From contig CP040678.1 of NCBI GenBank assembly GCA_005954745.1, forward strand, positions 372,001-436,000: DNA of 64,000 bases. The letters run 5' to 3'. Positions 49,580 to 55,189 of this stretch are shown one piece after another. The position numbers and the translations under genes were made by a program. Source of the DNA: Halostella pelagica (GTDB lineage: Archaea > Halobacteriota > Halobacteria > Halobacteriales > Natronoarchaeaceae). Each line of letters starts with the position of its first letter. The first letter of the stretch is position 1. The notes under the pieces were generated by a model. The model searched no databases. It worked only from the letters and a program-made list of their open reading frames with translations, and had not been told where the DNA came from.

Positions 49580-50041
49580 ATGTTCCGTTCCGGAGCCTTC
49601 GTCGCTGAGCATATCGGTCCAGTCGACGACGAACAGATACAGCCAAACGGCGTAGACCTGACGGTCGATGCGGTGTTCGAACAGGTCGAACCCGGCCGCA
49701 TCGGCCGAGACGGCAAGACTGTGGGTGACCGTGAGGACGTGGACCCTGCCGGCGACGCGTTCGTTCTCTCGCCGGGCGGCTACGTTCTCCGCTACGGGGA
49801 GACGGTCAAAATACCGTCAGACCACGTCGGATTTATCTATCCGCGGTCGTCGCTGTTGCGTAACTCCTGTATGCTGAACACTGCAGTGTGGGACGCCGGC
49901 TACGAGGGCCGCGGCGAAGGGCTGCTCCAGGTCCACCACGAGATCGCCCTCGAACGGGACGCTCGGGTCGCACAGATCGTGTTCGCACGGGCGAACCACG
50001 AACACACCTACGACGGTTCGTATCAAGGCGAGAACCGCTAA
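49580..50041 (+). CDS. dCTP deaminase/dUTPase family protein
   Basis: 153 residues, trimeric dUTPase/Dcd fold. Conserved parts are IQPNGVDLTVDAVFEQ, IYPRSSLLRNSCMLNTAVWD and GYEGRGEGLLQVHHE. Haloarchaeal members are annotated either as dUTP diphosphatase or dCTP deaminase; motif content does not settle which. It keeps uracil out of DNA in either case. Confidence 0.85.
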   Translation: MFRSGAFVAEHIGPVDDEQIQPNGVDLTVDAVFEQVEPGRIGRDGKTVGDREDVDPAGDAFVLSPGGYVLRYGETVKIPSDHVGFIYPRSSLLRNSCMLNTAVWDAGYEGRGEGLLQVHHEIALERDARVAQIVFARANHEHTYDGSYQGENR

Positions 50042-52253: not shown

Positions 52254-52262
52254 ACATATTTG
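52254..52262 (+). promoter_or_regulatory. TATA box for the repeat/HTH protein
   Basis: ACATATTTG, centred 29 nt before the GTG at 52287. This spacing supports the GTG as the start codon instead of an in-frame ATG 63 nt upstream. Confidence 0.5.
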
Positions 52263-52286
52263 TCCCTCGACAAACGGACTAACACC

Positions 52287-54305
52287 GTGCAAACGGACGA
52301 CGGGTCGGCGACGGCCAGGGTGAGTGCGGTTCTCGTCATCGTGGTCGTCGTGTTGCTGTGTGTGACCCCGGCCGCGGCAGCGGCCGCTCCGGGCGAAGGA
52401 GGTGGCGGTCCGCCGGAGGAAAACGGCGGTGGTCAACCAGACGAAAACGGCGGCGGTCCGCCGAACGACGATGGCGGCGGTCCGCCGAATGAGACTCCTG
52501 CGAACGGCACGGCAGAGGCTACTGGAAACACGGCAGAGAACGCTTCGCCGGACGCGAACGGTTCTGCCGGCCCGGCCGACGATTCTAGTTCACCGCGAGA
52601 CACTGGTTCCGCGGGCAACCAAACCGGGGGCAGTTCGGGATCGACCGGGAACGACACCGCTCCGGAAGCCAGTAACGGGACACCGGGCCACTCGACCGCC
52701 GCCGGTACAGACGAGAACTCCACTGGCGAAACTAACGGGTCCAACGCTCGCAGCGGAGAGTCCGGAAGCTCTCCCGGTTCGTCCGGGGATGCGCCGGAGC
52801 AACAGGGACAGTCCGGGACGAACGAGCCAGCACCCGGACAGAGCGGCGAATCGACGACCAATTCGTCTCCGCCGGGACAGAGCGGAGATGCTCCGACCGG
52901 TAATACGTCGCCGCCCGGGCACGCTGGTGATAGCTCGGCCAGTAACGGTACACCGCCGGGCCAGAGCGGAGAAAACAAGGGAGAAGACACGTCTTCGCCG
53001 GGCCAGAGCGGGGAGACACCCGCCGACGATACGTCGCCGCCCGGCCACGCTGGTGATACCCCGGCCAGTAACGGTACGCCGCCGGGACAGAGCGGAGAGA
53101 CTCCCGCCGGCGATACGTCGCCGCCCGGCCACGCTGGTGATTCTCCGGGTACTAACGGTACGCAGCCGGGCCAGAGCGGGGAGACACCTGCCGACGATAC
53201 GTCACCGCCCGGTCAGACTGACGACGCTCCGCCGGATCACGCTAACTCGACGCCGTCGGACGACAATGCGCCGTCCGACGACAACGCCACTCAGGACGAC
53301 GATGTGCCGCAGAACAGCACGCCGTCGGATGACGATACGCCGTCAGACGACGACCCGCCTTCGGACGACGCCCCGACACCCCCGAACCCGAAGAACGAAA
53401 CGGACGACGCTGTGCCTGACGAGTCCGGGCATACTGCGAACGAAACGGGCTCGTCCGACGCGAACGACACCGTCGACGAGACACCCGGAGGAGTCGCAGT
53501 GTCGGACGACGTTGCTTCTGACGGCGAATCGACAGACGATACGACGGACGCGGACTCCGCGGAGACCGAAACTGACGACGAGAACTCCACGAACGGATCC
53601 TCGTCGGCGAACTCCGACACCCCGAAGCCGTCCTCGCCCTCGGACGAGCCCGCTCCGGCCGGCTACGGGGCCGGTGTGATCGCTGTCGGGGCGGCGGTTC
53701 GACATGGTAACAGTGCGGTGGTCCATCTCTCGACGACGTCGACGGCCACGACGACGCTCGCGCCGGAGCAACACTGGGCCGTCCGCGGCATGGCGGGCCT
53801 GTACAGCAAGTACGACGATTCGGACCCGCTGGACCACGACGCTCGCGGCCGCCTTCACGAGACTATCGTCGAAGCGCCGGGGACGCACCTCTCGGCGCTG
53901 TGTGAGCGCACCGACGTATCGCTGTCGACGGCGCGGTATCACCTCCGCGTGCTGGAGGGCGAGGGGCTGGTGTCGAGCGTCAAAAACCGGGGCAAGCGTC
54001 GCTACTTCCCGGCTGACTCGACCGAGCGGGAACTCGCCGCCGCGATGGCCGACGACGCCGCCGCGTCGGTGCTGGAGACGCTCGCACACACCGGTCCCGC
54101 GACGGTGTCGACGCTCGCGGAGGAACTCGACCGGGACCCGAGTACGGTCACCCATCACCTCAAGCGTCTCGACGAGGACGGACTGGTCGCCAGAGAACGG
54201 GACGGTCGGGCCGTTGTTAACCGCCTCGCATCCGACGTAGCCCCCGTCATCCAGTCGCCCGCGGCCGACGTTGATTCGCCGCGCCAGCCCGGTAGCGCGG
54301 ACTGA
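52287..54305 (+). CDS. exported repeat protein with C-terminal winged-helix domains
   Basis: 672 residues from a GTG start. A hydrophobic signal segment (about 10-30, SAVLVIVVVVLLCV) is followed by a Gly/Pro/Glu repeat, then about ten 14-residue repeats (PPGQSGETPADDTS and PPGHAGDTPASNGT types) rich in NGT sequons, then an Asp/Ser-rich stretch. After a weak hydrophobic segment (GYGAGVIAVGAAVR) come two winged-helix domains (LSTARYHLRVLEGEGLVSS; DPSTVTHHLKRLDEDGLVAR). This predicts a surface sensor or stalk joined to a cytoplasmic DNA-binding module. Topology is inferred; ligand and target are unknown. Confidence 0.78.
   Translation: MQTDDGSATARVSAVLVIVVVVLLCVTPAAAAAAPGEGGGGPPEENGGGQPDENGGGPPNDDGGGPPNETPANGTAEATGNTAENASPDANGSAGPADDSSSPRDTGSAGNQTGGSSGSTGNDTAPEASNGTPGHSTAAGTDENSTGETNGSNARSGESGSSPGSSGDAPEQQGQSGTNEPAPGQSGESTTNSSPPGQSGDAPTGNTSPPGHAGDSSASNGTPPGQSGENKGEDTSSPGQSGETPADDTSPPGHAGDTPASNGTPPGQSGETPAGDTSPPGHAGDSPGTNGTQPGQSGETPADDTSPPGQTDDAPPDHANSTPSDDNAPSDDNATQDDDVPQNSTPSDDDTPSDDDPPSDDAPTPPNPKNETDDAVPDESGHTANETGSSDANDTVDETPGGVAVSDDVASDGESTDDTTDADSAETETDDENSTNGSSSANSDTPKPSSPSDEPAPAGYGAGVIAVGAAVRHGNSAVVHLSTTSTATTTLAPEQHWAVRGMAGLYSKYDDSDPLDHDARGRLHETIVEAPGTHLSALCERTDVSLSTARYHLRVLEGEGLVSSVKNRGKRRYFPADSTERELAAAMADDAAASVLETLAHTGPATVSTLAEELDRDPSTVTHHLKRLDEDGLVARERDGRAVVNRLASDVAPVIQSPAADVDSPRQPGSAD
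52838..53235. repeat. 42-bp tandem repeats in coding sequence
   Basis: About nine imperfect units of 42 bp (14 codons) encode PPGQSG/PPGHAG-type repeats in two alternating versions. The nucleotide units are more alike in the middle of the array, as expected if it expands and contracts by recombination. Copy number may vary between strains. Confidence 0.7.
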
Positions 54306-54346
54306 CCGGGTCGCCCCTTTTGTCGCTGCTGGTCGTACTGGACGCC

Positions 54347-55189
54347 ATGTGGGACCGGTTCCGGCGTTTGCTGGCGGTCGTCGTCGCCGTCGTCAGAGTC
54401 GTTCGCCGGAAGAACATCACGTTCATGGCCGGGAGCATCGCGTACAACGCGTTCGTCTCGTTGCTGCCGCTCCTTCTCATTCTGTTTCTCGTCGTCGCGG
54501 CCGTCGGTAACGACCCGCTGGCCCTCTACGTCGTCGAACTGACCGAGCGGTATCTGACGCCGAACGCGCAACTGTTACTGGCGAGCGCGCTGACCGACAG
54601 GACCGGGCAGGCGGGCCTCTCTGCTATCAGCGTCGTGACACTGTTGTGGGGGACGCTGAAGATATTTCGAGGACTCGACACGGCGTTCGCCGAACTGTAC
54701 GCGTCGGAGGCGGAGTCGACGCTGCTCGACCAGTTGCGGGACGGCTTCGTCGTGCTGTTCGCGGTGCTTTTCGCCATCCTCGCCGCGGGTGTCGCGGGCG
54801 CGGCGTTCGCGCTGTTCCCGGCGGTTCCGTACGTCGGGTTTCTGAGTCCGCTAGTCCTCGTTGTCGGACTCTCGCTCGCTTTCCTCCCCATGTACTACGT
54901 CTTTCCTGACGCCGACGTGACCGTGCGAGAGGTGCTTCCGGGAACCGTCGTCGCGTCCGTCGGATGGGCGCTGTTAGAGGCGCTCTTCCAGGTGTACGCC
55001 GCCGCGGCGAGTACGTACGAGGTGTACGGTACGATCGGTGCCGTCCTCCTCCTGTTGACGTGGCTGTACTTCGGCGGCCTCGTACTGATGACCGGGGCCG
55101 CCGTCAACGTCGTTCTCGCCGGCCGCGTCGACGAGACTGTCGACACCGAGGACATCGCGAACGCCGACGTCCGAGATATCGCCCCGTGA
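54347..55189 (+). CDS. YihY/BrkB-family membrane protein
   Basis: 280 residues, about six membrane helices. The family signature FMAGSIAYNAFVSLLPLLLI lies near residues 25-45, and IGAVLLLLTWLYFGGLVLMT near 230-250. Once called RNase BN, the family has no demonstrated nuclease activity and is thought to act in envelope function or transport. The ATG used is 41 nt after the upstream stop. Confidence 0.85.
   Translation: MWDRFRRLLAVVVAVVRVVRRKNITFMAGSIAYNAFVSLLPLLLILFLVVAAVGNDPLALYVVELTERYLTPNAQLLLASALTDRTGQAGLSAISVVTLLWGTLKIFRGLDTAFAELYASEAESTLLDQLRDGFVVLFAVLFAILAAGVAGAAFALFPAVPYVGFLSPLVLVVGLSLAFLPMYYVFPDADVTVREVLPGTVVASVGWALLEALFQVYAAAASTYEVYGTIGAVLLLLTWLYFGGLVLMTGAAVNVVLAGRVDETVDTEDIANADVRDIAP

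Follow-up and report, generated by a model that had tools for sequence, protein, structure and literature searches.

A haloarchaeal family of predicted membrane-bound regulators that joins sequon-rich, low-complexity stalks to tandem winged helices

Membrane-bound one-component regulators with HTH domains are known in archaea from ArnR and ArnR1 of Sulfolobus acidocaldarius (PMC6396743). These carry an N-terminal HTH, a HAMP-like and a sensor domain and two C-terminal transmembrane segments, and no glycosylated stalk is described for them (PMC6396743). Haloferax volcanii has two proteins, HVO_1944 and HVO_0306, that bear the annotation "probable transmembrane glycoprotein/HTH domain protein"; HVO_1944 is N-glycosylated in vivo via AglB, and HVO_0306 is a candidate for O-glycosylation (PMC8241124). 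Two more distant systems also bear comparison. Yeast sensors of the Wsc1 type read wall stress through a Ser/Thr-rich, glycosylated and disordered nanospring stalk on a single transmembrane segment (PMC7915640), and transmembrane anti-sigma factors of the RsgI type pass an extracytoplasmic signal to transcription via one transmembrane segment and intramembrane cleavage (PMC12203970).

We analyzed a stretch of 64,000 nucleotides of the Halostella pelagica genome (GenBank assembly GCA_005954745.1, contig CP040678.1, positions 372,001 to 436,000; hereafter, the window). An initial annotation of this DNA had described one chain with a signal segment, sequon-bearing repeats, an Asp-rich stretch, a weak hydrophobic segment and two winged-helix (wHTH) domains, and the open reading frame at 52287-54305 bears this out (Table 1). 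Its domain order is the inverse of that of ArnR, and no HAMP match was found in it. HVO_1944 and HVO_0306 resemble the window protein by annotation alone (Sec, SPI signal peptide, transmembrane glycoprotein, HTH); compared by description only, they may be of the DUF7343 type, with another ectodomain and a single wHTH. The genome that contains the window encodes at least three further proteins of this general layout, of the DUF7343 type (PF24034; L131-L133). They share with the window protein a signal peptide, an ectodomain, a transmembrane segment, an acidic linker and a C-terminal wHTH, but the ectodomain is no low-complexity stalk and the one wHTH belongs to another family. L134 resembles these three, with a less certain signal peptide. 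PF24034 is absent from the window protein among the best 25 of its 34 Pfam matches, and a search of the genome with PF24034 lists no match there. Regulators with a membrane-tethered wHTH seem to be numerous in haloarchaea.

Soluble regulators of the HVO_0163 type (PF24266; for example, L003/L139 in the same genome) also have a tandem wHTH, the first wHTH being homologous to that of the window protein. These are about 205 aa long and lack the signal peptide, stalk and transmembrane segment that the 672-aa window protein has. A literature search on HVO_0163 gave only a mention of its abundance under oxidative stress. The likeness to Wsc1 may be one of working principle, with no homology: Wsc1 has an N-terminal WSC domain and signals through the cell wall integrity pathway, with no DNA-binding tail. 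The likeness to RsgI would be of the same kind; RsgI is bacterial, acts through a sigma factor and has the opposite topology, with its N terminus inside. The layout had been called unfamiliar, and our search of the open-access literature (subscription papers lie outside that scope) found no description of a family with a low-complexity stalk and tandem wHTHs. The claim needs narrowing, as the HVO_1944 and HVO_0306 annotations and the DUF7343-type proteins encoded in the same genome speak against it: together with ArnR, the Haloferax transmembrane glycoprotein/HTH proteins make the general kind already known, and it is the low-complexity-stalk, tandem-wHTH family that is new.

Architecture, distribution and topology

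The GTG start codon of the window gene and the adjacent upstream DNA are conserved as a block in four congeneric loci, and the protein of congener L068 has an identical VQxD start. Strong matches to a profile of the C-terminal part occur in 97 of 392 Halobacteria genomes and in 35 of 86 genera; outside the haloarchaea, a 148-genome sample of the phylum contained only weaker matches. We compared 62 loci: the window gene, L034 and 60 others picked from the top full-length matches, a choice that under-counts soluble members. The order signal peptide, low-complexity stalk, Gly/Ala-rich segment and tandem wHTH was found in 59 of these loci, from several haloarchaeal families, although much of the sample comes from one family (f4), which leaves the counts biased and not independent. 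The exceptions are L082, L098 and L123. The window member has the signal peptide, the sequon-rich stalk and the Gly/Ala-rich segment before the first winged helix (wHTH1), the segment being weak.

Table 1. Coordinates of features at the regulator locus (window positions)
Feature	Position	Strand	Remarks
TATA-like box ACATATTTG, probably leaderless promoter	52254..52262	+	presumed TATA assignment
Palindrome TTTGT-N6-ACAAA overlapping promoter, candidate operator	52259..52274	.	ends 12 bp before start codon
Whole gene: signal peptide, stalk, hydrophobic (TM) segment, tandem wHTH	52287..54305	+	GTG start, 672 aa
Signal peptide hydrophobic core, residues 12-31	52320..52379	+	Kyte-Doolittle mean hydropathy 2.87 (19-residue window); Ala-rich AxA-type cleavage-like site directly after; equivalent in 59/62 loci
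Low-complexity stalk, about residues 35-455	52389..53651	+	22 N-x-S/T sequons, no Cys
24-bp tandem repeat, GGGPPxxN type	52404..52487	+	3.5 copies
Nine in-phase 42-bp (14-aa) repeats, PGQ and PGH types, partly 84-bp pairs	52872..53249	+	residues 196-321
Asp/Ser/Thr-rich membrane-proximal stalk part, about residues 315-455	53229..53651	+	18-bp repeats at 53251-53375
Weak Gly/Ala-rich hydrophobic segment APAGYGAGVIAVGAAV, then Arg; presumed transmembrane helix	53652..53699	+	residues 456-471
Juxtamembrane helix (predicted), model residues 43-58	53766..53813	+	AlphaFold2 helix, pLDDT about 55
Winged helix 1, after YSKYDDSDPLDHDAR	53826..54011	+	Pfam HTH_HVO_0163_N
Winged helix 2, ArsR-like	54027..54227	+	
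C-terminal Ser-Ala-Asp	54294..54302	+	kept as ...AD or ADD in most homologues

In a tree, members from the window genus group in a well-supported clade of their own, set off by a long stem. A scan of genome contigs gave three loci, one of which was set aside as a spurious bacterial wHTH. Contig C4 carries a paralogue of the window gene (L066). The congener G003, a draft genome, had no strong match to the C-terminal profile. In the genome of QS_9_68_17 (G004), the copy at L033:4809-6086 (= L009) has its signal peptide fused to wHTH1, without stalk and segment; the start of wHTH1 is lost, and the 3' end is disrupted, with the frame running into the next gene. As both genomes are drafts, the latter a metagenome-assembled genome (MAG), the missing match and the stalkless copy may be assembly effects, and the QS_9_68_17 copy may reflect natural decay or MAG misassembly. 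The paralogue L123, a frame of 188 codons that encodes wHTHs alone, lies about 5 kb from the full-length stalk regulator L074 (G356) and is possibly its soluble partner or competitor. Since some members lack the signal peptide or the stalk (L123; the G004 copy), the stalk is not always required.

The distribution of N-x-S/T sequons bears on topology. The window ectodomain contains 22, compared to 7.1 in composition shuffles (z 6.7) and seven of the reversed motif S/T-x-N, a control of equal composition. The ectodomain had been described as full of NGT sequons; it is indeed rich in sequons, only five of which are NGT. Across 59 family stalks we counted 469 forward and 172 reversed motifs, with the forward motif higher in 55 stalks and lower in two, and z exceeded 2 against composition shuffles in 50; in the C-terminal parts, the counts were 15 and 9. 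The 30 residues before the hydrophobic segment average 0.9 Lys+Arg and 6.0 Asp+Glu, compared to 2.4 and 0.8 in the 30 residues after it. As the sequences are related and f4 dominates, these sequon and charge counts overstate independence. The restriction of the sequon excess to the stalk assigns it to the same side as AglB, and the charge asymmetry is as the positive-inside rule predicts and fits a stalk outside and wHTHs in the cytoplasm. Genes of the STT3/AglB oligosaccharyltransferase family are present in the genome, and the outer stalk is probably N-glycosylated.

The membrane segment itself is less clear-cut in the window member. Its mean hydropathy of 1.10 (0.82 in the sister L068) is below the usual transmembrane cut-off of 1.6; most relatives are clearly higher, up to 2.03. 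The position of the segment is conserved, usually about 40-70 residues ahead of wHTH1. AlphaFold2 gave a pLDDT of about 45-58 over the window segment and did not model it as a helix, so a transmembrane helix there stays a presumption. The segments of the family contain 22% Gly and 31% Ala, compared to 8% and 23% in the signal peptides of the same proteins. The enrichment of GxxxG/A (114, compared to 101 in shuffles) is too slight to support a glycine zipper. Where the window protein has its predicted juxtamembrane helix, homologues have a basic and hydrophobic stretch.

We also recorded the neighboring genes. A gene for a YihY/BrkB-type membrane protein (54320-55189) follows the window gene within about 15-45 bp, and a homologue lies downstream in L067, in L068 (after a TnpB-like gene) and, according to the ORF list, in L009. 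A dCTP deaminase-like gene is upstream of the regulator in seven loci from several families (window, 49580-50041; L075, L076, L078, L080, L082, and L090). In many f4 genomes, the 3' side of the regulator faces gas-vesicle genes (for example, L085:5578-6993 and L092:5304-5876), recognized by Pfam matches to Gas_vesicle and GvpO and, for a GvpN-like AAA ATPase, by position; the corresponding gene clusters comprise 14, 19 and 13 of 61 loci. A link of the f4 regulator to buoyancy control is possible. The neighboring genes do not decide the signal of the regulator.

A stalk that changes sequence and keeps its chemistry

The initial annotation spoke of a tandem-repeat ectodomain of about 400 residues. 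The nine 14-aa units are real, but the true tandem array accounts for only about 126 of roughly 420 ectodomain residues; the remainder is of low complexity, with only short further arrays. Differences among the nine 42-bp copies number 25, 24 and 64 at codon positions 1, 2 and 3, a bias that fits a repeat which is translated and constrained. No ectodomain family came up when the stalks or whole proteins of four members were scanned with Pfam.

Using Tandem Repeats Finder, we detected tandem repeats in 51 of 59 family stalks, most commonly with units of 33, 21 or 18 bp, and in only two wHTH parts. Stalk lengths range from 136 to 1269 residues with a median of 231, the window member being the fifth longest at 425. 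The stalks of three congeners have 425, 391 and 307 residues, each with different repeats, and a change of stalk length through recombination between repeats, as the initial annotation had proposed, is plausible from these sequences.

The stalks also differ in physical type. Hydrophobic residues in the family stalks have a spectral peak at 3.60-3.70 residues, with a mean power of 3.0-3.3 compared to 1.0 in shuffles. Together with the 11-residue repeats, this periodicity suggests that in much of the family the stalk is an amphipathic helix or of hendecad type. The periodicity, a frequent trait that does not strictly define the family, is absent in the window member. In the window clade, Val, Ile, Leu, Met and Phe make up 1-2% of stalk residues, compared to a family median of 14%, and Pro and Gly make up 30-36%, compared to at most 22% elsewhere in the family. 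This composition points to a different physical stalk type in the window clade, while the acidic, sequon-rich character is shared. Stalks in this family evolve quickly and keep their chemistry: acidic, rich in Ser and Thr and rich in sequons. With sequence and repeat type wholly replaced and the acidic, sequon-rich character retained, the family offers a natural experiment on disordered stalks.

The winged helices and the promoter

The wHTH1 domain matches Pfam PF24266 at residues 518-582 with 51.3 bits (gathering cut-off 31). The second (wHTH2) matches HTH_20/ArsR at residues 587-636 and the ArsR/SmtB model NF033788 with 75.3 bits (cut-off 55), a family match by score that carries no claim of metal sensing. 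AlphaFold2 modeled both winged helices mostly with pLDDT of 92-98, and comparison of single-domain folds found ArsR-type neighbors in the PDB, in agreement with the sequence comparison. Foldseek matches of the whole model to RPC62, ESCRT-II, ScpB and SelB (query TM-scores about 0.23-0.33) were disregarded as generic likeness among tandem wHTHs. The module typical of the family, a YSRYDDSDPLEH tandem wHTH, is present in homologous form in the window member with its YSxYDxSDPLExxxR start. Conservation is highest in the recognition helices and wings, the wHTHs being far more conserved than the stalks, and a flexible linker separates the module from the hydrophobic segment.

Upstream of the gene, the TATA-like box lies within a block, CACCAyAAyAyrTTTG, that is conserved in four congeneric loci amid diverged upstream DNA. 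The overlapping palindrome is exact in the congeners L068 and L033 (the latter read from the alignment) and degenerate in L067. The perfect palindrome occurs once in the 3.94-Mb genome; since a control pattern, the same motif read backwards, has two sites, this uniqueness alone proves little. The palindrome was not found upstream of members from other clades. It is a candidate autoregulatory operator and no more. In five f4 members (L081, L084, L094, L103, and L121), the upstream regions share a conserved GACTGTCA followed by GAAACGG-like and CGTATTACG blocks, which look like a promoter footprint specific to the f4 clade. A sigma-70 promoter scan was set aside as not meaningful for archaea.

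A possible envelope sensor and its alternatives

We propose that the window protein is a membrane-bound one-component transcription regulator of type I topology with an outer stalk, a reading to which we assign a probability of roughly 0.66. The initial annotation had reached the same view, and it is supported by an architecture shared across the family, by an excess of sequons in the stalk only and by the uneven charges on the two sides of the segment. The conserved recognition helices and wings, the confidently modeled wHTH folds, the palindrome at the promoter and the N-glycosylation of HVO_1944, similar in general layout by annotation (PMC8241124), also speak for it. The sequences themselves show the architecture, how widely it is conserved, the surplus of sequons and the charge difference, whereas topology, glycosylation, DNA binding and autoregulation are inferences. 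In the proposed mechanism, the signal peptide would send the N-terminal stalk across the membrane, AglB-type N-glycosylation would decorate it, and the Gly/Ala-rich segment would span the membrane or anchor in it. The two winged helices would remain cytoplasmic and bind DNA, perhaps with the gene's own promoter among their sites. As the stalk lacks a recognizable binding domain and evolves quickly with its chemistry kept, we infer a role as glycan-carrying spacer or spring, which might report the physical state of the envelope, such as S-layer spacing, glycosylation, or osmotic or surface stress. That state would alter the dimer state of the wHTH module or its release from the membrane; envelope state as the signal is a guess. 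The weak segment of the window member and of L068, where AlphaFold2 models no helix in the window protein, the lack of the palindrome upstream of other clades' members and the occurrence of members that have no signal peptide or stalk count against the regulator reading.

The main rival, regulated intramembrane proteolysis, shares all but the last step with this mechanism, and both could hold together. The protein would be a precursor stored in the membrane; under stress, or once the stalk is lost, cleavage of the segment by a rhomboid or a site-2 protease would release the tandem wHTH to the chromosome, and the stalk would control protease access with no conformational sensing. Small, helix-weakening residues abound in the segment, although such Gly/Ala-rich segments equally suit ordinary helix packing, for which the GxxxG/A count, barely above shuffles, offers little sign. 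There are three rhomboid-family matches in the genome, the linker between segment and wHTHs is flexible, and L123, a wHTH-only protein encoded near full-length L074, suggests that a soluble module can act alone. Bacterial RsgI anti-sigma factors work by this logic (PMC12203970). The rival presupposes a cleavage site and a protease partner, and the haloarchaeal rhomboid RhoII has only putative substrates, with none of this kind named in the literature examined. We regard proteolytic release as possible, while leaning against it.

It is unlikely that the protein is a surface glycoprotein first, its stalk an anti-adhesive or protective sugar coat and its wHTH pair merely autoregulating production. 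Stalks that change fast yet keep their composition and sequons would fit such a coat, as would the lack of a recognizable sensor domain in the four members scanned and a candidate operator only at the protein's own promoter. However, the wHTHs are far more conserved than the stalks across the class, and we know of no coat protein of this sort with its own DNA-binding tail. Far less probable still, and rejected on the evidence of homologues, is export of the whole chain after the signal peptide, with the HTHs outside the cell and no role in transcription. The low hydropathy of the window segment would allow a non-spanning segment, but its position is conserved, most relatives are clearly more hydrophobic there, charges are asymmetric around it, the sequon excess ends at it, and the strongly conserved DNA-recognition residues would be pointless outside the cell. 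Finally, an artefact of assembly or gene calling, in which a frameshift joins a secreted low-complexity ORF to an unrelated regulator, is scarcely credible. GC-rich repeats are error-prone and the MAG copy from QS_9_68_17 has no stalk and a disrupted 3' end, but the same one-frame fusion in two congeners and dozens of other genomes and the codon-position bias between repeat copies contradict it.

Within the reading as a membrane-bound regulator with an outer stalk, a bolder form holds that the family consists of single-protein mechanosensors, in which a glycosylated nanospring stalk, reaching through or into the S-layer, would act via one membrane segment on the DNA-binding pair. Envelope tension or the state of glycosylation would then set transcription without kinases or proteolytic relays. 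Lineages would have exchanged the spring type, helical repeat or Pro/Gly-rich random coil, and kept the coupling. We consider this version doubtful.

Bacteria and yeast have dedicated envelope sensors. To our knowledge, how archaea sense the state of the S-layer and envelope is largely open. A widespread haloarchaeal family whose members combine, in a single chain, a sequon-rich and presumably outer stalk with a DNA-binding pair is a testable candidate for an envelope sensor, and it could couple gene expression directly to the condition of the cell surface.
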